NCBI RefSeq assembly: GCF_029051645.1
Contig: NZ_JAACFS010000021.1
Coordinates: 1-64,000, forward strand
Source of the DNA: Bradyrhizobium sp. CSA112
GTDB lineage: Bacteria > Pseudomonadota > Alphaproteobacteria > Rhizobiales > Xanthobacteraceae
Direction of reading: 5' to 3'
Length of the DNA: 64,000 bases
The notes under the pieces are model-generated. The model saw only the letters and a list, made by a program, of their open reading frames with translations, was not told the DNA's origin and did not search any database. Within the stretch, counting starts at the first letter, position 1, and every line of letters starts with the position of its first letter. Shown piece after piece: positions 8,964-46,587 of the stretch. The translations under genes were made by a program, and so were the position numbers.

Positions 8964-8973
8964 TGAACTCTGG

Positions 8974-9081: not shown

Positions 9082-9299
9082 GGCAAACTGCGACCAATTG
9101 GCACGACAGGCAAATCACCAAAAGCCTGTCCAGCCCCTTTTGCAAAAATATTCTGCTTTCGTTCTCACCCAAATCACCGGCATAACTCCGCCCGTCTCAC
9201 GGCAGATGAGGGGCGCTCGCGATCGTCACGACCGTGCAGTGAGATGCAATGGACGCTGATGGCGCGCTAGACATACGCGCAGGAAGCGTACGGCGAAGT

Positions 9300-18552: not shown

Positions 18553-21500
18553 CTATTCCTGCCGGATACGGCTAATCGCAGCCTGGACATCGGTCCAGGC
18601 CGGCTTGTCCGGGGCAAATTGCCGGCGGAGATAGGTGGCCAGTTCCGCGATCTGGCTGTCGGTCAGGCTGTCCTTGAAGGCCGGCATATAGCCGAGGTCG
18701 GTTGTCGCCGGCTTCGCGATGCCGTGCAGGATGACCTGGATCAGATTGTCAGGTGCAGTGCTGTGCAGATTGCTGTTCAGCGCCAGCGACGGGCGGCTGC
18801 CGAACAGCGGCGCGCCGCCGACCTCGTGGCATACCGCGCAGGCTCCCTGATAGATCCGGGCGCCGACGCCTGTGGCCACCGAGGCGCGCGTGCCCGTCGA
18901 GGATTCCAGTCTCGCGGCGAGCGCTTCCTGCGCCGCTCGGTCCATGGAAATCTCGTTAAACGAAGCGAGATAGACCGCCATCGCGCGGATGTCGGAATCC
19001 GGAAGCGCAGCAAGCTCCTTCACCACGGGCGCCATCGGCCCGGCGGCGACGCCGTGAAAGCGCGACTCGCCGGTTCGCAAATAAGCGTAAAGCTCGTCCT
19101 CGCTCCACGGAATCGGCGCTTGCGACAGCGATGTCAACGCCGGCGCTTCCCAGCCTTCCGCGAATCCGCCGGCGAGGTAGGCGTTCGCCTTCTCTGCGCC
19201 GAGCGCATTGCGCGGCGAGTGACAGGCGCTGCAATGGCCGAGGCCTTCGACCAGATAGGCGCCGCGATTCCATGTTTCGGATTTGGCCGGATCGGGCTGA
19301 AAGACAGCGGGCTGGTGGAACAGCGCGTTCCACCCTGCCATCAGCGGGCGAAGGTTGAACGGAAACGCTATCACGTTCTGCGGCGTCCCCGCGCGCACTG
19401 GCGCCTGCGCCATCAGATAGGCATAGAGCGCCTGCATGTCGGCGTCGCTCGCCTTGGCGAAATGCGGATAGGGAAATGCCGGATAGAGATGCCGGCCGTC
19501 GCGATGAATGCCCTCGCGCATCGCGCGCTCGAAGGCGGGATAGGACCATGCGCCGATTCCAGTTTCGACATCCGGCGTGATGTTGGTCGCGTAGATCGTT
19601 CCGAACGGCGTTTGTAGCGGACGCCCGCCGGCGTTGAGCAGGCCGTTCGCTGAGGTGTGGCAGACCGCACAGTCGCCGAGCGCAGCGAGTTGCTGACCGC
19701 GAGCGATGGTCGCAGCGGAATAGACCGAGGCATCGGGCCGTGCGATCGGCGCGATAGCGCGCCACGGCAGCACGGCCGCGCCGATGCCGATCGCGGCGGC
19801 GCAGAGCGCGGCGGCGGTGGCAAACACGCCGCGCCGTCCGGCAAAAGGATTCTGCCATCTGCTTAAGTCGGGCCGCGATTCCGGCGGCGGCAACGCCTCC
19901 GGTGCTGCTAGTTCCTCGCCGCGTAATCCCCGAAGGATGCGTTCCGGCGTGAACGGCAATTCGCGAAAGCGCACACCGGTCGCATCAAAGATCGCGTTGG
20001 CGATCGCGGCCGCGCTGGGGACCGAGGCAGACTCGCCGACGCCGAGCGGCGGCTGATCCTGGCGCGGCAGCATCAAGACATCGATGTCCGGCACTTCTGG
20101 AAACTTGATAATGGGGTAGGCGCCCCATTCCCGCGCTGTCACCGAGGTGCGGTCGAACGAGACTTCCTCCATCAGCGCGCGGCTGGTCGACTGGATGACG
20201 TTGCCATGGATCTGGTGGCGGACGCCGTCCGGGTTGATCATCAGGCCGGAGTCCTGACCCGCCACGACACGCGTGACGCTGACATCGCCGGTTGCCTTGT
20301 TGACGGCGACGTCGGCGATCCACGCGGACCACGCCGCGCCATAGCCCGGAAACTTGCTGTGCACATAAAGCGCATAGGCAAAACCGCGCCCGCGCACGAT
20401 ATCGCCTTCGGCCTCTTTCTCCTGCCGCACCGGTCGCGGCTTCCAGCCGGCGCGCTCGGCCACCGCATTGACGAGATCGACGGCGCGCGTGTCCTTCAGA
20501 TAGCGCAGACGGTATTCGATTGGATCGATGCCGGCCTCGCTAGCGCATTCGTCGATCCAGGATTCATGCGCAAACGTGTTCGGCAGCGCCGAGACGCCGC
20601 GGAGCCACGAGGCACGCGCGATGGGCGGCATGTCGTTCGCCACCACGCGCAGATTCTCGTAGTCGTAGGGCGGGATTGCGGTGCGGTCTCCCATCTCGAA
20701 GATGGCCGGCGTATGCGGGACGGCGCCGGTCAGCAGCAACGCCAGCGTCGGCGCGCCGTTCGATGGATAACGCGTCGCGAAATCATAGCCGGCTACGCTG
20801 CCGTCGGCGTTCAGCCCGCCATCGACGTCCATCAACTGCGCGGTACCCTTCGGCTCCCACGCATGCTCCTGCTCCCGCGTCAACTGCACGCGCACCGGGC
20901 GGCCGACGGCACGCGACAGCAGCACCGCGTCGGCGGAAACGTCATCGGCGCAATTGCGGCCGTAGCAGCCGGCAGCTTCCAGCCGGATCACTTCGATTTC
21001 AGCTTCGCGCCGGTGGATCAGCCGCGCCAGATCGGTGCGCAGATGATGCGGGTTCTGCGTGCCGGACCAGACCCTGGTGTGATCGTCCTGATAATCAGCG
21101 ACCGCGCAGGACGGGCCGATCGAGGCGTGCATCTGGTACGGCCAGACATAGGTTCGCGGCATCGGCTTGGCGGCACCGGCAATCGCGGCATCGACGTCGC
21201 CCTTGTTGATCAGCGTGCGCGGCGTCGACGGATTGGCGCGCAGCGCGGTCTCGATGTCCTTCAGGTCGGGCAGCGTCGGCACCGGCTTCCAGCTCACCTT
21301 GAGATGGGCGGCAGCCTTGATCGCATTCTCCTCACGCTCGGCGACGACGCCGACGAAGTCGCCGATCCTGACGACGGCGACGAGACCGGGGATGTCGCGC
21401 ACCGAGGCCTCATCCACCGCGATCAGACTGTTGCCGATGAAGTCACCGACATCGACGCCGGCATAGGGCGGTCGCACCACGCGGCCGTGCAGCATGCCTG

Positions 21501-22104
21501 ATACCCGCACGTCGTGAACGTAGACCAGTTCACCCGTTGCCTTCGCCGGCAGGTCGACGCGCGGAATGGATTGACCGACAATACTGTAGGCGCTCACGTC
21601 CTTCACCGGAACGTCGTCGGCGAGTTCCAGGCGAATGGTCTCGCCCGCTATCAGTTCGCCATAGCTGACACTGCGATTGTCCTTGCCGCGGATCAAGCCG
21701 TCCTCAATGACGAAATCTTCGACCGGAAGCTCGAGCCGCTCCGCCGCGCGCGCGACCAGAAATTGCCGCGCCTGCGCTGCTGCCTTGCGCAGCGGCACGG
21801 CGGTGATCTGGATGGTCTCGCTCGCAATCGTCGCGCCCTGATTGGGTACGAGCGCCGTATCGCCGAGCACGACGACGACGCGGGCAAAGGATACGTCGAG
21901 CTCCTCAGCGACGATCTGGCCGAGCGCGGTGCGGATGCCGGTGCCGAGATCGACGTGACCGTTATAGGCGGTGACCGTTCCGTCGGCCGTGATCTTGATG
22001 AAGGTTTCGAACTTGACGGCCTCGACCGGTGAGGCCGGACGAACGACAGACAGCGATCCCTGCAACCGTTCGCGATGCTCGGTCGTATCAGGCCCAGTCA
22101 TCAC
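18553..22104 (-). CDS. nicB: Nicotinate dehydrogenase subunit B (molybdenum hydroxylase fused to tri-haem cytochrome c)
   Basis: A protein of about 1183 residues that, with NicA, would hydroxylate nicotinate at C6 and pass electrons to cytochrome c. Residues 1 to about 735 are the xanthine-dehydrogenase-type molybdopterin domain, ending with GVGESASVPSAAAIANAI, which holds the conserved catalytic Glu of the family. A hydrophobic segment (about 755-780) follows, then three haem motifs: CAVCH (about 811), CSACH (about 958) and CAVCH (about 1088). This architecture and length match Pseudomonas putida NicB (about 1180 residues), not the Tat-exported isoquinoline enzymes without haems. The start overlaps the nicA stop (two adjacent ATG codons at 22104 and 22101). 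Substrate is inferred from architecture and from hnr next door; related enzymes can oxidise other heterocycles. Confidence 0.87.
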   Translation of the reverse strand: MMTGPDTTEHRERLQGSLSVVRPASPVEAVKFETFIKITADGTVTAYNGHVDLGTGIRTALGQIVAEELDVSFARVVVVLGDTALVPNQGATIASETIQITAVPLRKAAAQARQFLVARAAERLELPVEDFVIEDGLIRGKDNRSVSYGELIAGETIRLELADDVPVKDVSAYSIVGQSIPRVDLPAKATGELVYVHDVRVSGMLHGRVVRPPYAGVDVGDFIGNSLIAVDEASVRDIPGLVAVVRIGDFVGVVAEREENAIKAAAHLKVSWKPVPTLPDLKDIETALRANPSTPRTLINKGDVDAAIAGAAKPMPRTYVWPYQMHASIGPSCAVADYQDDHTRVWSGTQNPHHLRTDLARLIHRREAEIEVIRLEAAGCYGRNCADDVSADAVLLSRAVGRPVRVQLTREQEHAWEPKGTAQLMDVDGGLNADGSVAGYDFATRYPSNGAPTLALLLTGAVPHTPAIFEMGDRTAIPPYDYENLRVVANDMPPIARASWLRGVSALPNTFAHESWIDECASEAGIDPIEYRLRYLKDTRAVDLVNAVAERAGWKPRPVRQEKEAEGDIVRGRGFAYALYVHSKFPGYGAAWSAWIADVAVNKATGDVSVTRVVAGQDSGLMINPDGVRHQIHGNVIQSTSRALMEEVSFDRTSVTAREWGAYPIIKFPEVPDIDVLMLPRQDQPPLGVGESASVPSAAAIANAIFDATGVRFRELPFTPERILRGLRGEELAAPEALPPPESRPDLSRWQNPFAGRRGVFATAAALCAAAIGIGAAVLPWRAIAPIARPDASVYSAATIARGQQLAALGDCAVCHTSANGLLNAGGRPLQTPFGTIYATNITPDVETGIGAWSYPAFERAMREGIHRDGRHLYPAFPYPHFAKASDADMQALYAYLMAQAPVRAGTPQNVIAFPFNLRPLMAGWNALFHQPAVFQPDPAKSETWNRGAYLVEGLGHCSACHSPRNALGAEKANAYLAGGFAEGWEAPALTSLSQAPIPWSEDELYAYLRTGESRFHGVAAGPMAPVVKELAALPDSDIRAMAVYLASFNEISMDRAAQEALAARLESSTGTRASVATGVGARIYQGACAVCHEVGGAPLFGSRPSLALNSNLHSTAPDNLIQVILHGIAKPATTDLGYMPAFKDSLTDSQIAELATYLRRQFAPDKPAWTDVQAAISRIRQE

Positions 22105-22583
22105 GTCTGCGCCTCAACCACATGACCTGCAGCCCGCATCGCCGCGCGCATGATTTCGATATGCGCGCCGCAGCGGCACAGGTGATGGCGCAGCGCTTCC
22201 AGCACCTCGTCCTCGGTAGGGTGAGGGGAGCGCAGCAATAGCGCTTTGGTCGTGATGATCATGCCGTTGAGGCAGTAGCCGCATTGAGCGGCTTGCTCGC
22301 TAATGAAGGCTTGCTGCACGGGATCGGGATGCTCGCGCGTACCGAGACCTTCGAGCGTCACAATGTCGCGCCCGGCGCAGCCTTCGATCGGGATCACGCA
22401 GGAACGCGCGGCGACGCCGTCGATCAGCACTGCGCAGGCGCCGCATTCGCCGAGACCGCAGCCATACTTCGGTCCATTCAAAACGAGGTCGTTGCGCAGG
22501 ACATAAAGCAATGCAGTGTCGGGAGCCGCGTCGACATCGTACGCTTTGCCGTTGACGGTCAGGCGCATCGTGTTCTGCGTCAT
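22101..22583 (-). CDS. nicA: Nicotinate dehydrogenase subunit A (2Fe-2S)
   Basis: The 160-residue electron-transfer subunit with two [2Fe-2S] clusters. The plant-type cluster ligands are in YGCGLGECGACAVLIDG and a later Cys (RSCV). The second cluster uses QCGYCLNGM and HHLCRCG. The length fits NicA and other small subunits of molybdenum hydroxylases. A GAGGGAG site precedes ATG 22583. It is first in the operon nicA-nicB-pncB, and its promoter contains a palindrome shared with hnr and ena/fpr. Confidence 0.9.
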   Translation of the reverse strand: MTQNTMRLTVNGKAYDVDAAPDTALLYVLRNDLVLNGPKYGCGLGECGACAVLIDGVAARSCVIPIEGCAGRDIVTLEGLGTREHPDPVQQAFISEQAAQCGYCLNGMIITTKALLLRSPHPTEDEVLEALRHHLCRCGAHIEIMRAAMRAAGHVVEAQT

Positions 22584-22810: not shown

Positions 22811-22870
22811 AAGTGATCGGGCAGCGAGGAAGCAGCTCCGATCGGCGCCTTCTCGACTGCAGGCTTGTTC

Positions 22871-24319
22871 ATGACCGATGCGACCGTCGCCGGTGGCGAC
22901 AAGATCCGCTGCGATGCCTGTCCGGTGATGTGCTACATCAAGCCGGGCGCGGCAGGCGCGTGCGATCGTTACGCCAACCACAACGGCGAGCTGGTGCGCG
23001 TCGATCCGCATATCGTGCTGGAGCGAACGGTATCGCATGGCGGGCGGCTGGTGCCGTTCCAGGCCGGCGGCGGCGATTGGGACGGCAAGATCGTCCACGA
23101 GCCCAATGTCTTCGTCACCGCAATCGGCGCCGGAACAACTTATCCCGACTACAAGCCGGCGCCCTTCATCGTGTCGTCGGAAGTCGATGGCGTCGACATG
23201 GTCACGGTCGTGACCGAAGGCATTTTCAGCTATTGCGGCGTCAAGGTGAAGATCGACACCGACCGCTATCTCGGCCCCGAGACGGCAACGGTCCGCGCGG
23301 AAGGGGAAGCGATCGGCCATGTGACGACCAGCGAATACGGCTCGCAGATGCTGTCGCTCGGCGGCGTGCATCATCTGACCGGCGGCTCCAAGAAGGAAGG
23401 CCGCGTCACCTGCGACGCGCTGATGGATCTCTCCAACTGCAAGCCGGTGGAACTGACGATCGACGGCGGCGCCACGGTCGTGGTGCAGGCCGGCCATCCG
23501 CCCATCGTCAACGGCGTCGCCGAAGAGCGCATGCGCGTGGGCTGCGGCTCCGCGACGATCGGCATGTTCGCCAAGCAATGGCACGGCAAGGTCGACGAAG
23601 TCGTTGTCGTGGACGATCACATCACCGGCGTGCTCTCGGAGCATCAGGCCGGCAAGCTGCTCGATATTCCCGATACCGGGATCAAGATGAAGGGGCGGCG
23701 CTCGACGCCGGGCCGTTATTTCCAGGTCGCCGATCCCGGCACCGGCTGGGGCGGCACCAACATTTCCGATCCGCTGTCGGTGCTGGGACCGTTCAATCCA
23801 AAGGAGGCGCGACCTGGGCTGACCATGCTGATGGTTTCAACCACCGGAGAGCATGCGGCCTATTACGAACTCGACGAAGCGCTGCGGCCGGTCGAGAAGC
23901 AGATGCCGCCCGATCTGAAGTTCTCGGTCGAGCGCATCCAGGAAAATTGCGAACCGGCGCTGTGCACGGTGCTGTTCATGGGCGGCGCCGGCGGCTCGCT
24001 GCGTGCGGGCGTCACCGACAATCCGGTGCGGCTGACGCGCTCGGTCAAGGTCGCGCTGACGCGGGTCACCAGCGGCGGCGCGCCGGTTTATGTCTGGCCC
24101 GGCGGCGGCATCACTTTCATGGTCGATGTCACGCAGATGCCGGCAGGCGCGTTCGGCTATGTGCCGACGCCGGCGCTGGTAGCGCCGATCGAGTTCACGC
24201 TGAAACTGTCTGATTACGCTGCGCTCGGCGGCCACATGGATCACGTGCGTCCGCTGGCTTCCTTGCGCGATAACAGCGAAATCCGTCCGATGCCCTACAT
24301 GCCGGGACGGCGCGCATGA
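22871..24319 (+). CDS. hnr: 6-hydroxynicotinate reductase
   Basis: A 482-residue iron-sulfur protein resembling 6-hydroxynicotinate reductase of Eubacterium barkeri, which reduces 6-hydroxynicotinate to 1,4,5,6-tetrahydro-6-oxonicotinate with ferredoxin as donor. The N-terminus has Cys14, Cys17, Cys21 and Cys31 (RCDACPVMCYIKPGAAGACD), a likely [4Fe-4S] site. Further Cys-rich parts are RVTCDALMDLSNC and RVGCGSATIG, and the C-terminal half has VLFMGGAGGSLRAGVT. ATG 22871 is preferred over TTG 22865. The identification rests on remembered family likeness plus context: divergent nicAB, and an enamidase sharing the operator. The next gene overlaps its stop (ATGA), so they are translated together. 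Confidence 0.83.
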   Translation: MTDATVAGGDKIRCDACPVMCYIKPGAAGACDRYANHNGELVRVDPHIVLERTVSHGGRLVPFQAGGGDWDGKIVHEPNVFVTAIGAGTTYPDYKPAPFIVSSEVDGVDMVTVVTEGIFSYCGVKVKIDTDRYLGPETATVRAEGEAIGHVTTSEYGSQMLSLGGVHHLTGGSKKEGRVTCDALMDLSNCKPVELTIDGGATVVVQAGHPPIVNGVAEERMRVGCGSATIGMFAKQWHGKVDEVVVVDDHITGVLSEHQAGKLLDIPDTGIKMKGRRSTPGRYFQVADPGTGWGGTNISDPLSVLGPFNPKEARPGLTMLMVSTTGEHAAYYELDEALRPVEKQMPPDLKFSVERIQENCEPALCTVLFMGGAGGSLRAGVTDNPVRLTRSVKVALTRVTSGGAPVYVWPGGGITFMVDVTQMPAGAFGYVPTPALVAPIEFTLKLSDYAALGGHMDHVRPLASLRDNSEIRPMPYMPGRRA

Positions 24320-25224
24320 AACGGCTGCCGCAAATCGCGCTTCTTCCTGACGGCAAGCGGCTGCATTTGCAGGACGGTCCGATCGATCTGATTATCGAAG
24401 CCAGTGGCGAGGTGGCCGATGTGCGTGCCGCCTATCAGGCGGCGGCAAACCGCTTTACCGGTCTGCTCGATGAGCTCTGCGCGGAACTCGTGGAATTACG
24501 CCTCGCCGCCGATCCGGTGCGATGCAAGCTGGAAGGTGTTGTCGCGCGCCGCATGCATGCGGCGGTGGCGCCGTTTGCTGCCGAGCACTTCATCACGCCG
24601 ATGGCGGCGGTCGCGGGCAGCGTCGCGGAAGAGATCCTTGGTGCGATGCTCGGTGCGGCGCGGCTCGACCGCGCCTATGTCAATAATGGCGGCGACATCG
24701 CGCTGCATTTGACTGGTGGTGCGCAGTTCACCATCGGGCTGATCGACCGGCCGGACCATCATGGAGTGATGCAAACCATCAACATCGAATCCGGCGATGG
24801 GGCGCGGGGCATTGCGACCAGCGGCCGGCATGGCCGCAGCTTTTCACTCGGAATCGCCGATGCAGTGACCGTGCTGGCGCGCACTGCGTCGCAGGCCGAT
24901 GCCGCCGCCACCATCATCGCCAACGCCGTCGACTTGCCCGGTCATCCCGCCATCGCCCGTTGTCCGGCGAATGAATTGCAGCCGGACAGCGATCTCGGCG
25001 CTCGTCCGGTCACCCGCGACGTCGGCGCGATCAGAGGAAGCGAGATTGACGAGGCGTTGAGGGCGGGGGTGAGCCGGGCGCAGCAATTGCTTGCGGCGGG
25101 GTTGATCGAAGGTTCGGCCTTGCGTCTACTAGGCGAGACTGTCTTGGTGGGTGCAACAGGGATCAAGGCAGGCGTGTTGCCGGCGTTTCACGCAAGCGCA
25201 CTAGAAAGAATAGCGCATGTTTGA
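24316..25224 (+). CDS. UPF0280 family protein (ApbE-like fold)
   Basis: A 302-residue protein of the UPF0280 family, distantly related to ApbE flavin transferases. The stretch VNNGGDIALHLTG resembles the ApbE-family NxGGD motif, and GIATSGRHGRSFSLGIADAVTVLA resembles the later SGxxxR...HxxD region, but without the canonical HIIDP. It overlaps the hnr stop by four bases. The coupling suggests work on Hnr itself, for example flavin attachment or insertion, or a pathway step not yet assigned. No signal peptide is present. The function is inferred only. Confidence 0.75.
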   Translation: MKRLPQIALLPDGKRLHLQDGPIDLIIEASGEVADVRAAYQAAANRFTGLLDELCAELVELRLAADPVRCKLEGVVARRMHAAVAPFAAEHFITPMAAVAGSVAEEILGAMLGAARLDRAYVNNGGDIALHLTGGAQFTIGLIDRPDHHGVMQTINIESGDGARGIATSGRHGRSFSLGIADAVTVLARTASQADAAATIIANAVDLPGHPAIARCPANELQPDSDLGARPVTRDVGAIRGSEIDEALRAGVSRAQQLLAAGLIEGSALRLLGETVLVGATGIKAGVLPAFHASALERIAHV

Positions 25225-25242
25225 TCGAGAGCGAGGCTGATA

Positions 25243-25827
25243 ATGAGCGCGATCATTCGCAAGATCGTCACGGTGGTCGAGGAAACCCATCTCGAGATGG
25301 GACAAAAGGTTGCGCCGGCGACACGGCGCGCCGCGGCGATCGCCGTCATCGAGAACCCCTTTGCAGGCCGGTATGTGGAGGATCTCTCGCCCCTGATCGA
25401 AATCGGTGAGGAGCTTGGCGATCTGCTTTCGAAAAAGGCAGTGGCGGCGCTCGGCATCGACGGCGCAAAGGCCCACAGCTACGGCAAGGCCGCAGCCGTC
25501 GGCGAAAACGGCGAACTGGAACACGCCGCAGCGATCCTGCATCCGAAGATGGGCGCGCCGGTGCGCAAGGTCCTGGGCAAGGGCGCAGCATTGATCCCGT
25601 CGTCGAAGAAGCGCAGCGGCCCCGGGACGACGCTGGATATACCGCTCGGCCACAAGGACGCTGCGTTCGTGCGCAGTCATTTCGACGGCATGGAAGTGCA
25701 GATCAATGACGCGCCGCGCGCGAACGAGATCATGGTGGCGGTGGCCGTCACCGATAGTGGCAGGCCATTGCCGCGCGTCGGTGGGCTGACGGTTTCGGAA
25801 GTCAAAGGCGAAGACGGTTTGAGATAG
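25243..25827 (+). CDS. Amino acid synthesis family protein (AA_synth, DUF1185)
   Basis: A 194-residue soluble protein of the AA_synth family (PF06684), whose biochemical role is not established. Recognisable parts are RKIVTVVEETHLEMGQ at the N-terminus, VIENPFAGRY, HSYGKAAAVGENGELEHAAAILHPKMGAPVR and the C-terminal NDAPRANEIMVAVAVTDSGRP. The gene follows the UPF0280 gene by 18 bases and precedes the transporter binding protein by 24. Its position between hnr and the importer makes it a candidate for a missing step, for instance processing the aldehyde acid made by enamidase. Confidence 0.8.
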   Translation: MSAIIRKIVTVVEETHLEMGQKVAPATRRAAAIAVIENPFAGRYVEDLSPLIEIGEELGDLLSKKAVAALGIDGAKAHSYGKAAAVGENGELEHAAAILHPKMGAPVRKVLGKGAALIPSSKKRSGPGTTLDIPLGHKDAAFVRSHFDGMEVQINDAPRANEIMVAVAVTDSGRPLPRVGGLTVSEVKGEDGLR

Positions 25828-25851: not shown

Positions 25852-27054
25852 ATGCGACGTAGACACGTACTTGGAGCAGGCTTGGCGATCGCGGTCGCGG
25901 GCATGGCGGGCAGCGCCATGGCGCAGAGCGAAATCAAGATCGGCGAAATCAACAGCTACTCGCTGTTGCCTGCCTTCACCGAGCCCTACCGCAAGGGCTG
26001 GCAGCTCGCGGTCGAGGAAGTCAACGCGGCGGGCGGTATCAACGGCAAGAAGCTCGTCGTCATCTCCAAGGATGACGGCGGCAAGCCGGCGGACGCGCAG
26101 ACCGCGGCCAACGAGCTGGTGTCGAGCGAGAACGTCGCGATGCTGGCCGGCACGTTCCTGTCCAACATCGGTCTCGCAGTCTCTGACTTCGCCAATCAGA
26201 AGAAAGTGTTCTTCCTGGCGGCAGAACCCCTGACCGACGCCATCACCTGGTCGAAGGGCAATCGCTACACCTTCCGCTTGCGTCCTTCCAACTACATGCA
26301 GGCGGCGATGCTGGTGGAGGAAGCCGCAAAACTGCCGGCCAAGCGCTGGGCGACGATTGCGCCGAACTATGAATACGGCCAGTCGGCGGTCGCGGTGTTC
26401 AAGAAGCTGATGTCGGAGAAACGTCCTGACATCCAGTGGGTCGACGAACAGTGGCCGCCGCAGGGCAAGATCGACGCCGGTCCGGTGGTGCAGGCGGTTG
26501 CCGCCGCCAATCCCGAGGCGATCCTCAACGTTACCTTCGGCGCGGATCTGGTAAAGCTCGTGCGCGAGGGCAACACCCGCGGCCTGTTCAAGGGCCGCTC
26601 GGTGGTCTCGTTCCTCACCGGCGAGCCGGAATATCTCGATCCCTTGAAGGACGAGACGCCGGAGGGTTGGATCGTGACGGGATACCCCTGGTACGACATC
26701 AAGACGCCGGACCATGACAAGTTCCTGAAGGCGTATCAGGCCAAATACAACGACTATCCGCGCCTCGGCTCGATCGTCGGCTACCAGACCATCAAGGCGG
26801 CGGCGGCGATCCTTGCCAAAGCCAATTCGACCGATCCGGAGAAGCTTATTGCCGCGACTGAAGGCCTGTCGATGCCGTCGCCGTTCGGCGAGATCACGTT
26901 CCGCAAGATCGATCACCAGTCGACGCTCGGGGCCTATGTCGGCAAGACCGCGCTGAAGGACGGCAAGGGCGTGATGGTGAACTCGGTCTATCGCAAGGGC
27001 GCGGATTATCTTCCTGGTGATGCCGAGGTCGCCAAGCTGCGTCCGAAGGAGTGA
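25852..27054 (+). CDS. ABC transporter substrate-binding protein, branched-chain amino acid (type I) family
   Basis: A 400-residue periplasmic binding protein with a signal sequence (MRRRHVLGAGLAIAVAGMAGSAMAQ). The mature start IKIGEINSYSLLPAFTEPYRKGWQLAVEEVNAAGGING is typical of LivJ-like proteins. TGGAGG lies before ATG 25852; an in-frame TTG at 25840 is within that site and is rejected. This family also binds aromatic acids and amides, and its place directly behind hnr, UPF0280 and AA_synth suggests nicotinate, 6-hydroxynicotinate or a related pyridine acid as ligand. That is inference. Confidence 0.87.
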   Translation: MRRRHVLGAGLAIAVAGMAGSAMAQSEIKIGEINSYSLLPAFTEPYRKGWQLAVEEVNAAGGINGKKLVVISKDDGGKPADAQTAANELVSSENVAMLAGTFLSNIGLAVSDFANQKKVFFLAAEPLTDAITWSKGNRYTFRLRPSNYMQAAMLVEEAAKLPAKRWATIAPNYEYGQSAVAVFKKLMSEKRPDIQWVDEQWPPQGKIDAGPVVQAVAAANPEAILNVTFGADLVKLVREGNTRGLFKGRSVVSFLTGEPEYLDPLKDETPEGWIVTGYPWYDIKTPDHDKFLKAYQAKYNDYPRLGSIVGYQTIKAAAAILAKANSTDPEKLIAATEGLSMPSPFGEITFRKIDHQSTLGAYVGKTALKDGKGVMVNSVYRKGADYLPGDAEVAKLRPKE

Positions 27055-27319: not shown

Positions 27320-29206
27320 ATGGCCTTTTACTTCGTTCAGTTCCTGACCGGTCTCGCCAGCGCGGCGTCGCTGTTCCTGGTCGCGTCAGGGCTGTCGATC
27401 ATCTTTGGCGTGACGCGGATCGTGAATTTTGCTCATGGCGCGTTCTACATGCTCGGCGCCTATATGGCGTTCACGCTGACCGAGCGCTTCTCCGGCGCGC
27501 TCGGCTTCTGGGGCGGCATCGTCGTCGCGGCCTTGATTGTCGCCGCCATCGGCGTGCTGGTCGAGATGGTGCTGTTGCGGCGGATCTATCACGCGCCGGA
27601 ACTGTTCCAGTTGCTGGCAACCTTCGGCCTCACGCTAATGGTCCAGGATATCGTCGTGCTGATCTGGGGGCCGGACGATCTGCTCGGCCGCCGCGCGCCG
27701 GGCTTCAGGGGCGCGGTCGATTTCTTCGGCCAGAACATCCCGAGCTATGACCTGTTCCTGATCGCGCTCAGTCCGGTCGTGCTCGGCGTGCTCTGGCTGT
27801 TGTTCCAGCGCACGCGCTGGGGCGTGCTGGTGCGCGCGGCGACGCAGGACCGCGACATGGTGGCGGCGCTCGGCGTCAATCAGAAATGGCTGTTCACCAG
27901 CGTGTTCGCGCTCGGCGTTTTTCTCGCAGCGCTCGGCGGCGCGCTGCAGATTCCGCGCGATGCCGTGCACCACGCGCTGGACCTGCGTATCATCGTCGAG
28001 GTGTTCGTGGTGGTGGTGATCGGCGGGCTCGGCAGCATCATCGGCGCCTTCGTCGCCGCCGTGCTGGTGTCCGAGCTCAACGCCTTCGGCATTCTCATTT
28101 TCCCGAAGATATCCATCATCCTGGTGTTCCTTGTGATGGCTGTGGTGCTGATCGTGCGGCCATGGGGCCTGTTCGGCAAACCGGAAGCCGCCGCGCGTCG
28201 CACGCCCGGCCTGACCGTCAATCCGTGGCGGCCGCTGACATCAGGCGAGCGGCTGATGTCGCTCGGCGCGCTGGTCCTTGCAGCGATGCTGCCGCTGTTC
28301 GCTGGTAACTATGCGCTCACGGTTGGGTCGGAGATCGCGATCTACGTGATCTTTGCGGCGAGCCTGCATTTCCTGATGTCGGTCGGGGGGCTCGCCTCGT
28401 TCGGCCACGCCGCCTATTTCGGGCTCGGCGCCTATGGCGTCGCGTTCCTTGCCAAGGCGGCGGGGCTGCCGATGATCGTTTCGCTGCTGCTCGGCCCGCT
28501 TCTCGGCCTGCTTGGTGCCGCGGTGTTCGGCTTCTTCGCCGTTCAGCTATCCGGCGTCTATTTCGCGATGCTGACGCTGGCGTTTGCGCAGATCGTCTGG
28601 TCGATCGCGTTCCAGTGGGTGGCGGTGACCGGCGGCGACAACGGCATTTTGGGCGTCTGGCCGGACAAGTGGGCCGCCGGCCCGGCCAGTTTTTACTGGC
28701 TGTCGCTCGCGATAGCCGCGCTCGCGGTCACGGTATTGCGCGTGATCGTGTTCTCACCGTTCGGTTTCGCGCTGCGCGCGACGCGCGACTCGCCGCTGCG
28801 CAGCGAGGCGATCGGCATCAACGGCAAGCGCGTGCAGTGGACGGCGTTCGTCATATCGGGCACGGTCGCAGGGATCGGCGGCGCCTTGTTCGCCTATCTG
28901 AAGGGCAGCGTCTTCCCCGACAGCCTCGGCATCTCGCTGTCGGTCGATGCGCTGGTCATGGTGCTGCTCGGCGGCGTCGAGACGGTTTCCGGCGCGGTCA
29001 TCGGCGCCATCGTGTTCAAGGCGGCCAATATCTGGCTGGTCAGCCAGACCGATCTCTCCAAGCTGGTGCTAGGGGGCTTCATCGTGCTGATGGTGGTCGC
29101 CTTCCCGAAAGGCATCGTTGGCACGCTGGAGACGATCAGGAATCGTTGGCGATCTCCTGATACGAAATCCGCGCTGCTCGCCTCCCGGATCGAGACTGCC
29201 GAATGA
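27320..29206 (+). CDS. Fused branched-chain-type ABC permease (LivH-LivM)
   Basis: A 628-residue inner-membrane protein joining two permeases that are usually separate. Residues 1 to about 290 resemble LivH (LSIIFGVTRIVNFAHGAFYMLGAY; coupling region RAATQDRDMVAALGVN). Residues about 300-628 resemble LivM (LMSVGGLASFGHAAYFGLGAYG; coupling region RATRDSPLRSEAIGIN). The two coupling loops indicate one complete channel in a single chain. The ATPase gene overlaps its stop by four bases. Confidence 0.88.
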   Translation: MAFYFVQFLTGLASAASLFLVASGLSIIFGVTRIVNFAHGAFYMLGAYMAFTLTERFSGALGFWGGIVVAALIVAAIGVLVEMVLLRRIYHAPELFQLLATFGLTLMVQDIVVLIWGPDDLLGRRAPGFRGAVDFFGQNIPSYDLFLIALSPVVLGVLWLLFQRTRWGVLVRAATQDRDMVAALGVNQKWLFTSVFALGVFLAALGGALQIPRDAVHHALDLRIIVEVFVVVVIGGLGSIIGAFVAAVLVSELNAFGILIFPKISIILVFLVMAVVLIVRPWGLFGKPEAAARRTPGLTVNPWRPLTSGERLMSLGALVLAAMLPLFAGNYALTVGSEIAIYVIFAASLHFLMSVGGLASFGHAAYFGLGAYGVAFLAKAAGLPMIVSLLLGPLLGLLGAAVFGFFAVQLSGVYFAMLTLAFAQIVWSIAFQWVAVTGGDNGILGVWPDKWAAGPASFYWLSLAIAALAVTVLRVIVFSPFGFALRATRDSPLRSEAIGINGKRVQWTAFVISGTVAGIGGALFAYLKGSVFPDSLGISLSVDALVMVLLGGVETVSGAVIGAIVFKAANIWLVSQTDLSKLVLGGFIVLMVVAFPKGIVGTLETIRNRWRSPDTKSALLASRIETAE

Positions 29207-29994
29207 GCATGGCCCCCACATTGCTGTCAGTCGAAGCCTTAAGCAAATCCTATGGCGGCGTGCATGCCGTGCGCAGCGTGTCGTTTGAGCTCCGGGCCGG
29301 CGAAATCCTGGCGTTGATCGGGCCCAACGGAGCCGGGAAAAGCACCTGCTTCGACATGCTCAACGGCCAGAACATCCCGGACAGCGGCCGGATTACTCTG
29401 CTCGGGGAGGATACGGTGGGGCGGAAGCCGCGCGCGATCTGGCGGCTCGGCGTCGGGCGCACGTTCCAGATCACCGCGACGTTCCCGACCATGACGGTGC
29501 GCGAGAACGTGCAGGTTGCACTGGTGTCCTATGGTAGGCAGTTGTTCAATCTCTGGGGCTCGACCGCGCAGTTTGCGCGCGACGAGGCGGGACGGCTGCT
29601 CGATCTCGTCGGTATGGGCGCCTATGCCGGGCGGCCCTGCGGCGAGTTGGCTTACGGCGACCTCAAGCGGCTCGAGCTTGCGATCGCGCTCGCCAACCAG
29701 CCCAAACTGTTACTGATGGACGAGCCGACCGCCGGCATGGCGCCGCGCGAGCGGATCGAGCTGATGCGGCTGACCGCGCGCATCGCCCGCGAGCAGTCGA
29801 TCGGCGTGCTCTTCACCGAGCACGACATGGATGTGGTGTTCGAACATGCCGATCGCATCCTCGTGCTCAACCGCGGCAGCCTGATCGCCGAAGGCTCGCC
29901 CGAGGAAGTCCGCGGCAACCCGCAGGTACGTGCGATCTATCTCGGCGAGGGCCTGGTCTACGACGCGCGGCATCGCGAGGGAGCCGGCGCATGA
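29203..29994 (+). CDS. ABC transporter ATP-binding protein (LivG-like)
   Basis: A 263-residue ATPase for the importer. Walker A is GPNGAGKST; the signature region is atypical for LivG (CGELAYGDLKRLELA, with AYGD in place of SGGQ); Walker B is LLLMDEPTAGMAP and the switch His lies in FTEHDMDVVFEHADRI. The FTEHDM and DRILVLNRG sequences are characteristic of LivG relatives. It overlaps the permease and the next ATPase by four bases each, so the three are translated together. Confidence 0.88.
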   Translation: MSMAPTLLSVEALSKSYGGVHAVRSVSFELRAGEILALIGPNGAGKSTCFDMLNGQNIPDSGRITLLGEDTVGRKPRAIWRLGVGRTFQITATFPTMTVRENVQVALVSYGRQLFNLWGSTAQFARDEAGRLLDLVGMGAYAGRPCGELAYGDLKRLELAIALANQPKLLLMDEPTAGMAPRERIELMRLTARIAREQSIGVLFTEHDMDVVFEHADRILVLNRGSLIAEGSPEEVRGNPQVRAIYLGEGLVYDARHREGAGA

Positions 29995-30695
29995 AGCTGC
30001 AGGTCGCCGATCTCAACAGCTTTTACGGCCCGGCGCATATCCTGTTCGATATTGCGCTCGAAGTCGGCGAGGGCGAAGTGGTGGCGCTGCTCGGCCGCAA
30101 CGGCGCCGGCAAGTCGACGACTTTCCGTTCCATCGTCGGCCTGGTCGAGAACAGGTCCGGGCGCATCGTGTTCGAGGGCAGGGACGTGTCGGCCCAGCCG
30201 ACGCATGCGATCGTGCGCGGCGGGCTCGGCTACGTGCCGGAGGAGCGACGCATCTTCACGGACCTGACAGTCGATGAAAACCTCGAAGTCGGCCGCCAGC
30301 CCAAGCGGCCGAACGCACCGTACTGGACCCGCGAAAAGCTCTTCACGCTGTTTCCCAATCTCGGCGAAATGCGCAACCGCCCCGGCGGGCGAATGAGCGG
30401 CGGCGAACAACAGATGTTGACCATCGCGCGGACGCTGATGGGTAACCCGTCGCTGGTGCTGCTCGACGAGCCCTCGGAAGGACTGTCGCCGAAGATCGTC
30501 GAGCAGATGGTCGAAGCTATCCTTGCGATGAAGAGAGAAGGCGTCAGTATCGTGGTATCCGAGCAGAACCTGCATTTCGCACGGCTGATTTCGGACCGCG
30601 CCTACATCATCGAGCGTGGCAAGATCTGCTTCGGCGGCACGATGGCCGAACTCGACGCGCGGCCGGACATCCGGGATGCGCATCTGTCACTGTGA
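29991..30695 (+). CDS. ABC transporter ATP-binding protein (LivF-like)
   Basis: The second ATPase, 234 residues. It has GRNGAGKST (Walker A), GYVPEERRIF, MSGGEQQMLTIARTL (signature), LVLLDEPSEGLSP (Walker B) and VVSEQNLHFA in the switch region. YVPEERRIF and the SEQN form are typical of LivF. It completes the importer begun by the binding protein at 25852. Confidence 0.9.
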   Translation: MKLQVADLNSFYGPAHILFDIALEVGEGEVVALLGRNGAGKSTTFRSIVGLVENRSGRIVFEGRDVSAQPTHAIVRGGLGYVPEERRIFTDLTVDENLEVGRQPKRPNAPYWTREKLFTLFPNLGEMRNRPGGRMSGGEQQMLTIARTLMGNPSLVLLDEPSEGLSPKIVEQMVEAILAMKREGVSIVVSEQNLHFARLISDRAYIIERGKICFGGTMAELDARPDIRDAHLSL

Positions 30696-30724
30696 TCGGC
30701 AAAGGGGAAGGGCGGGGAGCGCAG

Positions 30725-31180
30725 ATGGGAAGGAGTGTTTCGCCGAAACGAAGCGTCAAGCCGGCGCGGCCGTCCTACATCCTCGACGAGCAGATCGGCT
30801 TCATCCTGCGCCAAGTCTGGCAGCGCCATGCCACCATCTTCGCCCGCGAGATTGGCATCAACCTGACGCCGACGCAATGGGCTGCGCTCGCCAAACTGAC
30901 CGAGACCGGGCCGTGCTCGCAAAACCTGCTCGGACGGCTGACGGCGATGGATGTCGCGACCATCAAGGGTGTGATCGACCGCCTCACGGCGCGTGGCCTG
31001 ACAGAGACGAGCCCGGACCCTGAGGACGGCCGCCGCCTGCTGGTGAGCCTGACCCGCGCCGGCCAGCAACTGGCGGAGAAGGCCGCGCCGAACGCGCTCG
31101 CGATCACGCGGGAGACGCTGGCGCCGCTGGATGCGAAGGAGCGCGAGACGCTGATCGCGTTACTCGACAAGTTGCGCTGA
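30725..31180 (+). CDS. MarR family transcriptional regulator (candidate nicotinate regulator)
   Basis: A DNA-binding dimer of about 151 residues. The winged HTH runs from about 45 to 105 (LTPTQWAALAKLTETGPCSQNLLGRLTAMDVATIKGVIDRL and the wing DPEDGRRLLVSLTRAG). GGGGAG precedes ATG 30725; a GTG at 30692 overlaps the livF stop and is a second option. It is last in the operon hnr-UPF0280-AA_synth-importer. The MarR protein NicR represses nicotinate genes in Pseudomonas putida, so this one is the natural candidate to bind the four palindromes at 22643, 22795, 39744 and 39758. That binding is inferred. Confidence 0.87.
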   Translation: MGRSVSPKRSVKPARPSYILDEQIGFILRQVWQRHATIFAREIGINLTPTQWAALAKLTETGPCSQNLLGRLTAMDVATIKGVIDRLTARGLTETSPDPEDGRRLLVSLTRAGQQLAEKAAPNALAITRETLAPLDAKERETLIALLDKLR

Positions 31181-33270: not shown

Positions 33271-33676
33271 CGTACTGCCTCCCTGTTTGCCTCGATGTAC
33301 AGCGACACGGCTCAGCGGCATGCAGCAGCAAGACATCACCCGGCGCGTTGAGTTCCTCTTGCGAGCGCCGCCGGCCGGGGTTTGCCGACCGACCATACAC
33401 CGCAATACGGCGGGCGAAAATAACGATGGTGCTACTGATCCGCTGCGCGACGCAAAGGGCGCGGAAGCCTGCTGATGATTGCGCTTGCCGGTTTGGGCGG
33501 CGTCGCGAACGCGTCAACGCAGGTTCGATCATCGCCATTCGCTCGCGACCATTTGCAGGGAGAGGCGCCCTGCGTCCTATGCACGCTTTCTCCGTGCAAT
33601 CGATCGAGCGTTGGCTTGGCCAGATTGGCGGGGCTCCGTGAAACCATTGTTACCGTTGACGTCACGTCAAACTATT
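33271..33676. other. Gene-free gap between SBP56 and TetR genes
   Basis: About 400 bases between divergent genes. The open frames here lack ribosome sites and family likeness and look random. It must hold both promoters; only the TetR operator at its right edge is clear. Confidence 0.5.
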
Positions 33677-36551: not shown

Positions 36552-36656
36552 CTAGAACATGATCCGGAAAAGTGGTGCCGGTTTTCTGAAAAGATCATGC
36601 TCGAATAAAGAGATAGAGCGGGACGACTTTTCGAAGGAAAGTTATCCCGCTCTAGG
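36552..36656. repeat. Rhizobiales-type palindromic repeat pair
   Basis: Part one pairs agaacatgatccggaaaag with cttttcagaaaa-type sequence through gatcatgctc; part two has arms agagcggga and tcccgctct around a 21-base loop. This motif is common in Rhizobiales genomes. It overlaps the stop codon of the cyclase gene and may end that transcript. Confidence 0.75.
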
Positions 36657-38235: not shown

Positions 38236-38377
38236 GGCTTGGATTGGCTCCCAACTGTCAATACAGTGTGAGGCAGGCAATCTTTCCAGCACCTACAGCG
38301 TACCATGGTGGCTGTTCACCGCAAGCAGCCGTGCGCGGGTTCCACGCGGCTCCTAAGGGCTACTCCTAAGGGCTAAG

Positions 38378-38470: not shown

Positions 38471-39670
38471 TCAATGCCCGATGAGGATCTCCGGCACCTT
38501 CCCCGCGGGCGGCGTGTTGCGGCTGCGCTGGGTGCGGACGATGCCGTCGATGATGGTCATGCCGATGCCGGGGAGGTCGCCGAGCTGGACGCTTTCAAGG
38601 ATGTTCTTGCCGGGCGAATGCTGGGCCTTGTCCATCAGCACGAAATCGGCAGAGCGGCCGACTTCAATTAGCCCGCAATCGAGCTCGCGCATGCGGGCGG
38701 TGTTGCCGGTTGCAAGGCAAAAGGCGAGTTCGGCGGGCAGGTCGCCGAGCGAGGACAGCATCGAGACCATGCGCAAAATGCCGAGCGGCTGCACGCCGGA
38801 ACCGGCCGGCGCATCGGTGCCGAGGATGACGCGGTGCAGGTCGCCCATCTCGCGCGCGGTGCGCAACGTGAACAGCGCCGAGCGCTCATTGCCGTTGTGA
38901 ACCAGCTCCAGCCCGCGCTTGCAGCCCTCGCAGATGCAGCGGATCTGGTCGTCGGGCAGCGCGGTGTGGCCACCATTGATATGTCCGACCACGTCGGTGT
39001 CGGCTTCCAGCACCACGTCCTTGTCGATCAGGCCGGAGCCGGGGATCGAGGGACCGCCGGTATGGATCGTGCTCTGGATGCCGTATTTACGCGCCCAGCC
39101 GACCATCTTGCGCGCGGTCGGACCGTCCTTGACGCCGCCGAGACCGACTTCGCCGAGCAGCTTGACGCCGGCCGCGGCCAATTCCTTGAAATCGTCCTCG
39201 ACCATCTCGCATTCGATAACGGGCGCGCCGGCGTGAACCTTCACGCCGCCCGGACGCAGCGTCCAGAACGCGCGCTGCGCAAAGATCGCCATCGCCTTCA
39301 GGCCGACGACGTCGCGTGGACGGCCGGGCATGTGGACTTCGCCGGCCGAGATCATGGTGGTGACGCCGCCATGGAGATAGCTGTCGATCCAGTTGATCTG
39401 GTTCTGCCGTGGCGTCCAATCGCCGGCGACGGGGTGGACATGGCTGTCGATCAGACCGGGCGCGACGGTGGTGCCATTGGCGTCGACGACCGTGGTGGCG
39501 CCCTCGGTGTTGACGTCCTTGAAACGGCCGATCGCGGATATCTTGCCGTTCTCGGCCACGATCGTATCGCCGTCCAGGATCGGCTTCTCCAGGGCCCCCG
39601 ACAGCAGCAGCCCGATGTTGCGGATCACCAGCTTGCTGGGACCGGTCGCCTGGGGTGCATCGTGGGCCAT
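38471..39670 (-). CDS. ena: Enamidase (1,4,5,6-tetrahydro-6-oxonicotinate hydrolase)
   Basis: A 399-residue amidohydrolase closely resembling Eubacterium barkeri enamidase, which opens 1,4,5,6-tetrahydro-6-oxonicotinate to 2-formylglutarate and ammonia. Shared features I recognise are LHGGVTTMISAG, GVKVHAGA, GEVGLG (Glu174), HTGGPSIPGS, VGHINGG, GTDAPAGSGVQPLGILR and the tail SRNTPPAGKVPEIL. Metal ligands are His77 and His79 (DSHVHP), with His203, His230 and Asp286 as further candidates. AAGGA precedes ATG 39670. It is divergent from fpr, and the gap holds two copies of the palindrome found at nicA/hnr. It supplies the third step after NicAB and Hnr. Confidence 0.92.
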   Translation of the reverse strand: MAHDAPQATGPSKLVIRNIGLLLSGALEKPILDGDTIVAENGKISAIGRFKDVNTEGATTVVDANGTTVAPGLIDSHVHPVAGDWTPRQNQINWIDSYLHGGVTTMISAGEVHMPGRPRDVVGLKAMAIFAQRAFWTLRPGGVKVHAGAPVIECEMVEDDFKELAAAGVKLLGEVGLGGVKDGPTARKMVGWARKYGIQSTIHTGGPSIPGSGLIDKDVVLEADTDVVGHINGGHTALPDDQIRCICEGCKRGLELVHNGNERSALFTLRTAREMGDLHRVILGTDAPAGSGVQPLGILRMVSMLSSLGDLPAELAFCLATGNTARMRELDCGLIEVGRSADFVLMDKAQHSPGKNILESVQLGDLPGIGMTIIDGIVRTQRSRNTPPAGKVPEILIGH

Positions 39671-39716
39671 GGTTTTTCCTTTTGGTTCAATGCCTTCGCT
39701 GCGCATTCTGCCCGGC

Positions 39717-39773
39717 TTGACGATCGGATCAAGCTGGATTATTCGTTTGTATACGAACGATCGTATACGAATG
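39717..39773. promoter_or_regulatory. ena/fpr divergent promoter with two overlapping operators
   Basis: Two 16-base sites, cgtttgtatacgaacg (39744-39759) and cgatcgtatacgaatg (39758-39773), overlap by two bases. Both fit CGWTYGTRTACRAAYG, the pattern of the nicA and hnr sites. Toward fpr, TTGACG (39717-39722) and TATTCG (39740-39745) are spaced by 17 bases, so the first operator begins inside the second box, much as at hnr. Toward ena the boxes are less clear. Confidence 0.7.
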
Positions 39774-39815
39774 ATTTCACCGGTCAATCCGGCTTGCAGG
39801 TCAGGGAACGGCAAG

Positions 39816-40589
39816 ATGAGCAATTTCAACCAGGAAAGCGTCCTCAGCGTCCATCACTGGACCGACACGCTGTTCAGCTTCACCACCACGCGCGATCCCT
39901 CGTTCCGCTTCCGCAACGGCGAGTTCACCATGATCGGGCTGAAGGTCGGCGAGAAGCCGCTGCTCCGGGCCTACTCGGTCGCCAGCGCCAATTACGAGGA
40001 CCGGCTGGAATTCTTCTCGATCAAGGTGCCGGACGGGCCGCTGACCTCGCGCCTCCAGCACTTGAAGCAGGGCGACGAGATCATCGTCAGCCGCAAGGCC
40101 ACGGGCACGCTGGTCATCGACAACCTCGAGGACGGCCGCAATCTCTATCTGATCGGCACCGGCACGGGCTTGGCCCCGTTTCTTTCCGTGATCAAGGATC
40201 CCGAGACCTATGAGCGGTTCGAGAAGGTCGTGCTGCTGCACGGCTGCCGCCGCGTCGCCGAGCTCGCCTATGGCGAGATGATCACCGAAAAGCTGCCGAA
40301 CGACGAACTGATCGGCGAATATGTCCGCAACCAGTTGATCTATTACCCGACCGTGACTCGAGACCCGTTCCGCAACCGCGGCCGCATCACCGACCTGATC
40401 AACTCAGGAAAATTGTTCGGCGATATCGGTTTGGCCTCGCTCGATCCCGCGCTTGACCGCGTCATGATCTGCGGCAGCCCGGCGCTGGTGGCGGACACGC
40501 GCACGCTGCTCAACGGCAAGGGGTTTGTCGAAGGCAATCACGGCGAGCCGGCCCAGTTCGTGGTGGAAAAGGCGTTTGCGGAGCGGTGA
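39816..40589 (+). CDS. fpr: Ferredoxin--NADP reductase
   Basis: A 257-residue cytoplasmic flavoenzyme moving electrons between NADPH and ferredoxin or flavodoxin. FAD binding shows as RAYSVAS, NADPH binding as GTGTGLAPF and MICGSPALVADT, and the C-terminus FVVEKAFAER is typical of bacterial Fpr. The length is normal. The open frame begins upstream at 39393, but ATG 39816 with AGGGA in front gives the family N-terminus. Its promoter shares operators with ena, nicA and hnr, which suggests it supplies reduced ferredoxin for Hnr; Fpr also has a general redox role elsewhere. Confidence 0.92.
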   Translation: MSNFNQESVLSVHHWTDTLFSFTTTRDPSFRFRNGEFTMIGLKVGEKPLLRAYSVASANYEDRLEFFSIKVPDGPLTSRLQHLKQGDEIIVSRKATGTLVIDNLEDGRNLYLIGTGTGLAPFLSVIKDPETYERFEKVVLLHGCRRVAELAYGEMITEKLPNDELIGEYVRNQLIYYPTVTRDPFRNRGRITDLINSGKLFGDIGLASLDPALDRVMICGSPALVADTRTLLNGKGFVEGNHGEPAQFVVEKAFAER

Positions 40590-46577: not shown

Positions 46578-46587
46578 GACATCCCCC

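Follow-up and report, generated by a model that had tools for sequence, protein, structure and literature searches.

COG2122 (UPF0280, DUF375) has resisted explanation ever since its link to homocysteine synthesis emerged: it is ApbE-like and yet apparently lacks the ApbE flavin site. The family is reported to be required for homocysteine synthesis in Desulfovibrio, where mutants are rescued by methionine (PMC5764234), and its member MA1715 has been termed a sulfur trafficking protein (PMC12068725). A second family, AA_synth (PF06684, formerly DUF1185), has two crystal structures and no established reaction. SPO0826 and BB2672 are described as hexameric in solution with a chorismate-mutase-like fold, and the amino-acid-metabolism label of the family was inferred partly from neighboring branched-chain amino acid (BCAA)-type ABC (ATP-binding cassette) transporter genes, which also adjoin SPO0826 (PMC2954203). 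Here we analyzed a 64,000-nucleotide stretch of Bradyrhizobium sp. CSA112 (contig NZ_JAACFS010000021.1, positions 1 to 64,000; hereafter the window), in which genes of both families follow hnr, encoding a 6-hydroxynicotinate reductase homolog. The bare observation is not new: two conserved unknown proteins were already seen in 2012 in the nicotinate cluster of Bradyrhizobiaceae SG-6C and A. caulinodans (PMC3511419). We find that Hnr, UPF0280, and AA_synth are linked across phyla, and that the two accessory genes part according to the presence of an enamidase homolog. With modest confidence, we favor the explanation that UPF0280 would act as a flavin transferase for Hnr, and AA_synth as a handler of the formyl product of the enamidase.

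UPF0280 is encoded beside Hnr in distant bacteria

In the window, hnr lies at 22871..24319 on the forward strand (482 aa from the ATG at 22871; TTG at 22865 is an alternative start). Its stop codon shares an ATGA (24316..24319, +) with the start of the UPF0280 gene (24316..25224, +), and an 18-base spacer (25225-25242) separates the UPF0280 stop from AA_synth (25243..25827, +). The initial annotation had given this gene order, overlap, and gap with correct coordinates and sizes. It had also raised co-occurrence with Hnr across genomes as a question, which for UPF0280 has a strongly positive answer. One set of 299 genomes from the phylum of the window was searched for Hnr, UPF0280, and AA_synth. 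Hnr was present in 20, and UPF0280 exceeded its cutoff in exactly those 20, in each case directly downstream on the same strand, and in 0 of the 279 Hnr-negative genomes. A twenty-first UPF0280 match (G291) scored 22 bits and has the look of an ordinary ApbE. Among plasmids, all 26 records with Hnr carried UPF0280, and UPF0280 records totaled 27.

Further samples were labeled Desulfobacterota, Bacillota, and Clostridia, group names that we inferred. Of 317 Desulfobacterota genomes, 50 had Hnr, as did 12 of 319 from Bacillota; 391 Clostridia genomes gave two true matches. One of these, the E. barkeri-type cluster L178, has UPF0280 adjoining an Hnr that is fused to a dicluster ferredoxin. The cluster also encodes molybdenum-hydroxylase-like subunits, AA_synth, a HIBADH-type dehydrogenase, and an enamidase-like amidohydrolase. 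In the other genome (G686), the contig bearing Hnr spans 3.1 kb and lacks UPF0280; the UPF0280 of this genome is of the homocysteine type, beside HcyBio.

The Desulfobacterota and Bacillota genomes yielded 66 Hnr loci, usually ordered ndhS-ndhF-ndhL-enamidase-Hnr-UPF0280-AA_synth, where the genes called ndh are so named for their similarity to L178. Adjacency was counted where at least 1.5 kb remained downstream of hnr (61/66), and UPF0280 adjoined Hnr in 57 of these 61 uncut loci. By genome, 59 of 62 have UPF0280 adjacent at at least one Hnr locus, and two of the remaining three are cut by a contig end. No fusion of Hnr to UPF0280 or of UPF0280 to AA_synth was found among the open reading frames (ORFs) of the 66 loci.

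Seven Desulfobacterota loci (L264, L275, L276, L280, L288, L290, and L306) carry Hnr paralogs with molybdenum-hydroxylase-like genes and UPF0280, without enamidase or AA_synth. By eye, genes in L275, L288, and L290 resemble a tripartite ATP-independent periplasmic (TRAP) importer. Such enamidase-less clusters possibly specify a reductive route for another N-heteroaromatic acid.

Hnr carries a candidate flavin acceptor segment

Searching Pfam and NCBIfam with Hnr of the window gave nothing at E<=0.001. The protein is 40.0% identical over 455 residues to Hnr of L178, whose neighbors are molybdenum-hydroxylase-like, enamidase-like, and HIBADH-type genes. We use the name Hnr because of this identity, the annotation of plasmid homologs as 6-hydroxynicotinate reductase, and the cluster described in PMC3511419; the window protein thus has both the homology and the pathway context of that enzyme.

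An alignment of 84 Hnr sequences longer than 400 aa revealed an N-terminal Cys cluster (C14-C17-C21-C31), retained in 82 of the 82 sequences having letters there, and an invariant C225. A stretch reminiscent of flavinylation sites, D109-M-V-T112-V-V-T115-E, recurs as [DEN]-x-x-T-V-V-T-E in 76 of 84 sequences, and T112 and T115 are present in all 84. It matches the ApbE target motif D-x-x-[ST]-G-A-[ST] in register, without the G-A, making T112 and T115 candidate flavin acceptors. An A-to-V change in that motif is reported to leave about half of flavinylation (PMC12052999). The AF2 model of Hnr (mean predicted local distance difference test, pLDDT, 76) had no match in the PDB at E<=0.001, which is not evidence of a new fold; the best VIA match was the glycine cleavage system T-protein (Z 4.6, over 65 residues). 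Hnr of E. barkeri is said to contain a covalent flavin together with iron-sulfur (Fe-S) clusters.

Two further ideas on Hnr were considered. The segment GCGSAT (S227/T229) was initially attractive as a flavin site since Hnr of G686 and L308 lacks it. As a discriminator it failed: the hydroxyl at 229 is missing in the UPF0280-linked Hnr of L287, L303, and L317, and L308 does have UPF0280, 3.1 kb downstream. Remote homology of Hnr to HcyBio (PF01837) was not significant by hhalign (P 0.18 to 0.86 over the modes tried), with the best local match covering the VD-x-V-T stretch in the better-filled alignments; we retain it solely within the two-client reading below. Separately, the Cys cluster (window 22910-22963) gave weak profile matches of 18.6-23.7 bits in 18 Clostridia genomes (L160-L177), 17 of them in frames of 279-340 aa and one in a frame of 70; these frames presumably resemble radical S-adenosylmethionine (radical-SAM) N-termini. 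The Hnr frame of L182 (G016, 7725-9200) is split into two overlapping frames, a frameshift or assembly error.

UPF0280 is predicted to share the fold of FMN transferases

Against NF003322, UPF0280 of the window scored 414.5 bits over residues 4-284 (cutoff 290). With its AF2 model (mean pLDDT 88.1), Foldseek ranked 2o34, a COG2122 structure, first and filled ranks 3-41 entirely with ApbE, Ftp, and FmnB (E 1.5e-5 to FmnB). VIA gave Z 20.6 to 2o34, 14.5-16.7 to ApbE/Ftp/FmnB, and 7.8 to the next family, with superposition on the ApbE relatives at a root-mean-square deviation of 3.2-3.8 Å over 204-222 residues. Profile comparison with nine ApbE sequences was significant (E 2.9e-10), spanning the GGD/GGN-type, TSG, and ADAxAT/ADAxxT segments, and was not significant for three control families. 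The model thus places UPF0280 in the ApbE/flavin mononucleotide (FMN) transferase fold, which the homologous crystal structure also shows.

We aligned 146 UPF0280 sequences (77 Hnr-linked and 69 from other phyla; ORFs outside length limits were excluded). G125-G126-D127 was found in all 146, S169 in 143, and D195 and T199 in 145 each. Ser241, His257, and Asp285 are reported as conserved catalytic residues of ApbE (PMC12052999), and S169 and D195 would correspond to Ser241 and Asp285. A tree of the same sequences separated the 77 Hnr-linked from the 69 others with none misplaced (support 1.0).

A search of the window's genome with the ApbE profile PF02424 gave no match, and in 9 of the 20 Hnr genomes, this one included, PF02424 matched nothing or only UPF0280 itself. 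UPF0280 is therefore a natural candidate for flavinylating Hnr: it has the FMN-transferase fold, its gene overlaps hnr, it stands beside nearly all Hnr examined, and in those nine genomes it is the sole such protein found. The earlier suggestion that an ApbE-like UPF0280 handles flavin for Hnr stands at the level of fold, and we would sharpen it from general flavin handling to covalent attachment. The open-licence literature, a scope that cannot show the link to be unpublished, held nothing under UPF0280, nothing joining ApbE and hydroxynicotinate, and nothing on E. barkeri with covalently bound flavin.

In anaerobe loci, AA_synth follows the enamidase rather than Hnr

AA_synth of the window matched the full PF06684 profile (1-175) with 249 bits (cutoff 27), and 134 of 190 aligned residues are identical to SPO0826 (PDB 2qtp). 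In the window's phylum the family occurred in 40 of 299 genomes, namely 19 of the 20 Hnr genomes, beside UPF0280, and 21 without Hnr. The family is a wide one that extends beyond Hnr genomes. Two genomes (G008 and G207) have tandem AA_synth copies, and the window's genome has a second copy far from Hnr (G000:C106:99762-100283).

The anaerobe loci separated the two accessory genes. Of the 66 loci, 49 extend 2.5 kb beyond hnr on its downstream side and 1.3 kb on its upstream side. In these 49 uncut loci, 37 had both enamidase and AA_synth, nine had neither, three had enamidase only, and none had AA_synth only (Fisher exact p 1.1e-7, which for related sequences is not an independent-sample probability). 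Over all 66 loci the corresponding counts were 46, 10, 7, and 3, and the three AA_synth-only loci all have hnr at the upstream cut end. In the nine uncut loci lacking enamidase, AA_synth was present in none and UPF0280 stood beside Hnr in seven; of the other two, L308 has its UPF0280 farther downstream, as noted above, and L273 has none. In the window's phylum the tie was looser: enamidase and AA_synth were both found in the window, L180, and L181, neither in L179, and AA_synth alone in four other 20-kb regions (below). The initial annotation had proposed that AA_synth processes 2-formylglutarate or another intermediate. The tie to the enamidase step in the anaerobe loci fits that proposal, with the amendment that AA_synth is tied there to this step and not to Hnr itself.

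Representatives of 33 AA_synth loci outside nicotinate clusters, one per cluster of loci, were scanned for neighbors. Aldehyde dehydrogenase and flavin reductase each occurred in 19, and luciferase-like monooxygenase in 12. All three were present together in 12 loci, and 11 loci had none of them. We take this set to recall trigonelline clusters. Both the nicotinate and the trigonelline route have a pyridine-3-carboxylate as starting compound and lead through a formyl group adjacent to a carboxylated carbon. In a tree of AA_synth, the nicotinate-linked copies nearly formed a clade (54 versus 34, four misplaced, support 0.92). TgnF, the homolog from trigonelline breakdown, reportedly stimulates the oxidation of succinic semialdehyde (PMC7913881, which cites Perchat 2018). 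This effect and the formyl chemistry shared by both routes are why we assign AA_synth an aldehyde role, the weaker half of our proposal, which we offer tentatively. Both families had been annotated as uncharacterized. UPF0280 is not wholly so, given the need for COG2122 in Desulfovibrio, and for AA_synth there is the effect reported for TgnF.

The nicotinate cluster of a Sagittula stellata plasmid (L190) has a ferredoxin-NADP reductase gene just upstream of Hnr, likely its electron supply. It also carries a hydantoinase/oxoprolinase pair, two AA_synth copies, and a ring-hydroxylating dioxygenase subunit.

A homocysteine-linked group of UPF0280 in anaerobes

A UPF0280-profile scan of other phyla was followed up for the best 80 of at least 330 confirmed candidates. 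These 80 loci, many of them short contigs, come from many groups, mostly anaerobic. None of the 80 contained full Hnr, and two weak N-terminal matches were the only trace of it. HcyBio/DUF39 was near UPF0280 in 36 of these best 80 (35 upstream within 1.3 kb, one downstream), as was NIL-ferredoxin in 36 (34 upstream, two downstream); six-frame profiles over the whole loci gave HcyBio in 36 and NIL-ferredoxin in 41. HcyBio was also present in 24 of 24 genomes behind such loci, most of them picked because no HcyBio adjoined UPF0280, and it was absent from all 20 Hnr-bearing genomes in the phylum of the window. This pairing corresponds to the homocysteine system described in PMC5764234. Because of the 36 loci and 24 genomes we label the 69 sequences the homocysteine group, though they were not each seen beside HcyBio.

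Hnr and HcyBio have D-x-V-T-x-x-T in common, which matches the ApbE motif in register. All 36 HcyBio sequences considered (32 of the 36 HcyBio genes, longer than 350 aa, plus four further loci) have VDVVTT[AG]T or IDVVTT[AG]T, and [DE]xVTVVT occurred in 22 of 22 Hnr. The HcyBio stretch lies five residues before a conserved Cys, probably the essential Cys described in PMC12068725. Over the VDVVTTAT segment of one HcyBio (L079, 8196-9353) there is a sub-threshold FMN_bind match (E 0.17, residues 27-51). UPF0280/COG2122 could be one flavin transferase family with two clients: Hnr in nicotinate users and, in anaerobes and methanogens, the aldehyde sulfurtransferase HcyBio/DUF39. We regard this extension as speculative and would not expect it to hold. 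If true, the homocysteine-forming enzyme would be an unrecognized covalent flavoenzyme, its flavin supplying the reducing step of thiol formation and accounting for the need for COG2122.

Proposed roles and their alternatives

We propose that UPF0280 and AA_synth each serve, as accessory proteins, one of two successive steps in reductive nicotinate breakdown. UPF0280 would be a cytosolic, metal-dependent flavin transferase of the ApbE fold that attaches FMN, taken from flavin adenine dinucleotide (FAD), covalently to a Ser/Thr of Hnr. The enamidase would then open the reduced ring and release a reactive alpha-formyl acid as enol, enamine, or hydrate. AA_synth would speed conversion of these forms to the free aldehyde and present it to the next enzyme. 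We infer the covalent flavin on these Hnr homologs, UPF0280 as its attacher, the acceptor residue, the cytosolic location, and the AA_synth reaction. A flavin transferase dedicated to Hnr would account for the overlap with hnr and for the occurrence of UPF0280 with several Hnr subtypes.

A number of observations weigh against this proposal. The general-base His (His257 of V. cholerae ApbE) is missing from UPF0280, its loop being absent in the profile alignment, and position 174 is Arg in 75 of 77 Hnr-linked sequences (His in 55 and Pro in 14 of the 69 others). The window protein scored 18.9 bits (E 0.0012) to PF02424, short of the Pfam cutoff of 25.6, which the Clostridial ortholog passes (27.9 bits). 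The full D-x-x-[ST]-G-A-[ST] motif is absent from Hnr, where the D-x-V-T-V-V-T stretch is a predicted strand in the AF2 model. For COG2122, persulfide transfer has been proposed, and a view is cited that its homology stops short of the ApbE flavin-binding region (PMC5764234). The linkage has exceptions as well. Four of the 61 uncut loci lack adjacent UPF0280: three are in genomes (G853, G735, and G1136) where another Hnr locus has it adjacent, and in the fourth (G855) AA_synth follows hnr with no UPF0280 between. The one plasmid record with UPF0280 but no Hnr match (L189, NZ_CP044550.1, Hydrogenophaga sp. BPS33) has UPF0280 in four places; in the stretch read, it lies in repeated units bounded by IS1071 that also hold genes for a Rieske oxygenase, a PDR/VanB reductase, and MarR. 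As for AA_synth, the enamidase of E. barkeri releases 2-formylglutarate by itself. AA_synth is missing from beside Hnr and UPF0280 in G139 and from three loci that do have enamidase (L283, L309, and L310), and L182, L183, L184, and L186 have AA_synth with no enamidase homolog found in the 20-kb region. For HcdD, the homolog from 7-hydroxycoumarin breakdown, attempts to see a stimulating effect failed (PMC7913881).

The alternative that survives best, though we consider it unlikely, is that UPF0280 supplies its partner with sulfur as persulfide or matures an Fe-S center in it, a role put forward for MA1715/COG2122. Handling of Fe-S or sulfide would then be what Hnr and the homocysteine enzyme have it for. 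Each of the two either is an Fe-S protein or works with one, and the missing His, the methionine rescue, the proposed persulfide role, and the naming of MA1715 all accord with this idea. So does a Cys in the column of A167, kept in 68 of 69 homocysteine-group sequences, but it occurs in just 9 of 77 Hnr-linked ones, and no Cys was invariant among 18 aligned UPF0280 sequences. The FMN-transferase fold with its Ser and metal-site Asp/Thr is kept, nicotinate reduction involves no sulfur transfer, and the covalent flavin that Hnr reportedly carries likewise argues for flavin attachment.

We think it quite unlikely that UPF0280 is instead an FAD pyrophosphatase or a non-catalytic, Ftp-like flavin carrier that feeds FMN to an Hnr forming its own covalent bond. 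The bifunctional Ftp of T. pallidum is among the closest solved enzymes (VIA Z 16.5-16.7), and loss of the catalytic His would suit such a role, but a general carrier needs neither the strict one-to-one linkage to Hnr nor a clade of its own. On the AA_synth side, a ring-opening role, in which the chorismate-mutase-like fold acts as in small cyclic-amide hydrolases, would explain the four 20-kb regions with AA_synth and no enamidase homolog. It appears very unlikely given that AA_synth accompanied an enamidase homolog in 37 of 49 uncut anaerobe loci and stood alone in none; in the Sagittula cluster, moreover, the hydantoinase/oxoprolinase genes could open the ring. That neither gene acts in nicotinate chemistry, the operon being frozen and spread as a block, is most improbable, despite the 26 plasmid records with Hnr (mostly rhizobia and Sulfitobacter). 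Three phyla, whose Hnr proteins are only about 40% identical, have this gene order and content in common, and the separation of the two genes by enamidase presence would not be seen in a neutral block.

Flavin attachment by UPF0280 can be approached directly. Where the homocysteine enzyme is absent, UPF0280 is strictly paired with Hnr, an independent client with a weighable cofactor, and its biochemical role thus becomes directly testable in easily grown soil bacteria. AA_synth in turn gains a candidate pathway step.

Genes surrounding the cluster

A two-gene molybdenum hydroxylase, presumed to be nicotinate dehydrogenase, faces the hnr-UPF0280-AA_synth row from the opposite strand. It comprises a [2Fe-2S] subunit (22101..22583, -) and a large molybdopterin subunit fused to cytochrome c (18553..22104, -). 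Adjoining it is a nicotinate phosphoribosyltransferase gene (17179-18483, -), which puts salvage beside breakdown. Downstream of AA_synth, a putative importer is encoded by genes for an ABC substrate-binding protein (Peripla_BP_6; 25852..27054, +; start ATG 25852 or TTG 25840), a fused branched-chain-type permease (27320..29206, +), and two ATPases (29203..29994, + and 29991..30695, +), followed by a MarR-family regulator (30692..31180, +). The enamidase homolog, an amidohydrolase (38471..39829, -) that shares 46.8% identity with its Clostridial counterpart in L178 over 385 residues, lies about 14 kb from the row.

Other genes of the window encode an SBP56 protein (31870-33405), a guanylate-cyclase-type domain joined to a formylglycine-generating-enzyme-like domain (36652-38292, -), and a second molybdenum hydroxylase (44391-47031, -; large subunit 44391-46715, [2Fe-2S]-subunit match 46600-47031). 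A promoter scan gave 0 sites, and terminator-like sites numbered 6 versus 3.3 (sd 1.9) in shuffles.

Comparison with known systems

The excerpts of PMC3511419 on the earlier nicotinate cluster neither name the families of its two unknown proteins nor assign them roles; they also draw no comparison between phyla and do not tell the two genes apart. UPF0280 resembles ApbE, Ftp, and FmnB (PF02424) in its predicted fold, in the TSG Ser, in the Asp and Thr of the ADAxAT segment, and in detectable profile homology. It differs in being shorter, in lacking the HIIDP-type loop that bears the general-base His, in showing no signal peptide by eye, and in apparently serving one enzyme. Without that His, we file UPF0280 as working like ApbE and not as ApbE.

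The COG2122 proteins of anaerobes (DVU1097, structure 2o34; DvMF_0044; MA1715) share the family, fold, GGD, Ser 169, and Asp/Thr metal-site residues with Hnr-linked UPF0280. They differ in having HcyBio/DUF39 as partner, in forming a separate clade, and in carrying His or Pro at 174, Glu at 123, and Cys at 167.

TgnF and HcdD are likewise AA_synth homologs from N-heterocycle or lactone breakdown, and the portions of PMC7913881 that describe them do not mention Hnr or UPF0280. The crystallized SPO0826 (2qtp) and BB2672 (3byq) belong to the same PF06684 family as the window protein. The transporter arrangement of SPO0826 recurs in the window, here as a nicotinate cluster, and the amino-acid label that AA_synth owes partly to neighboring transporters merits a second look.

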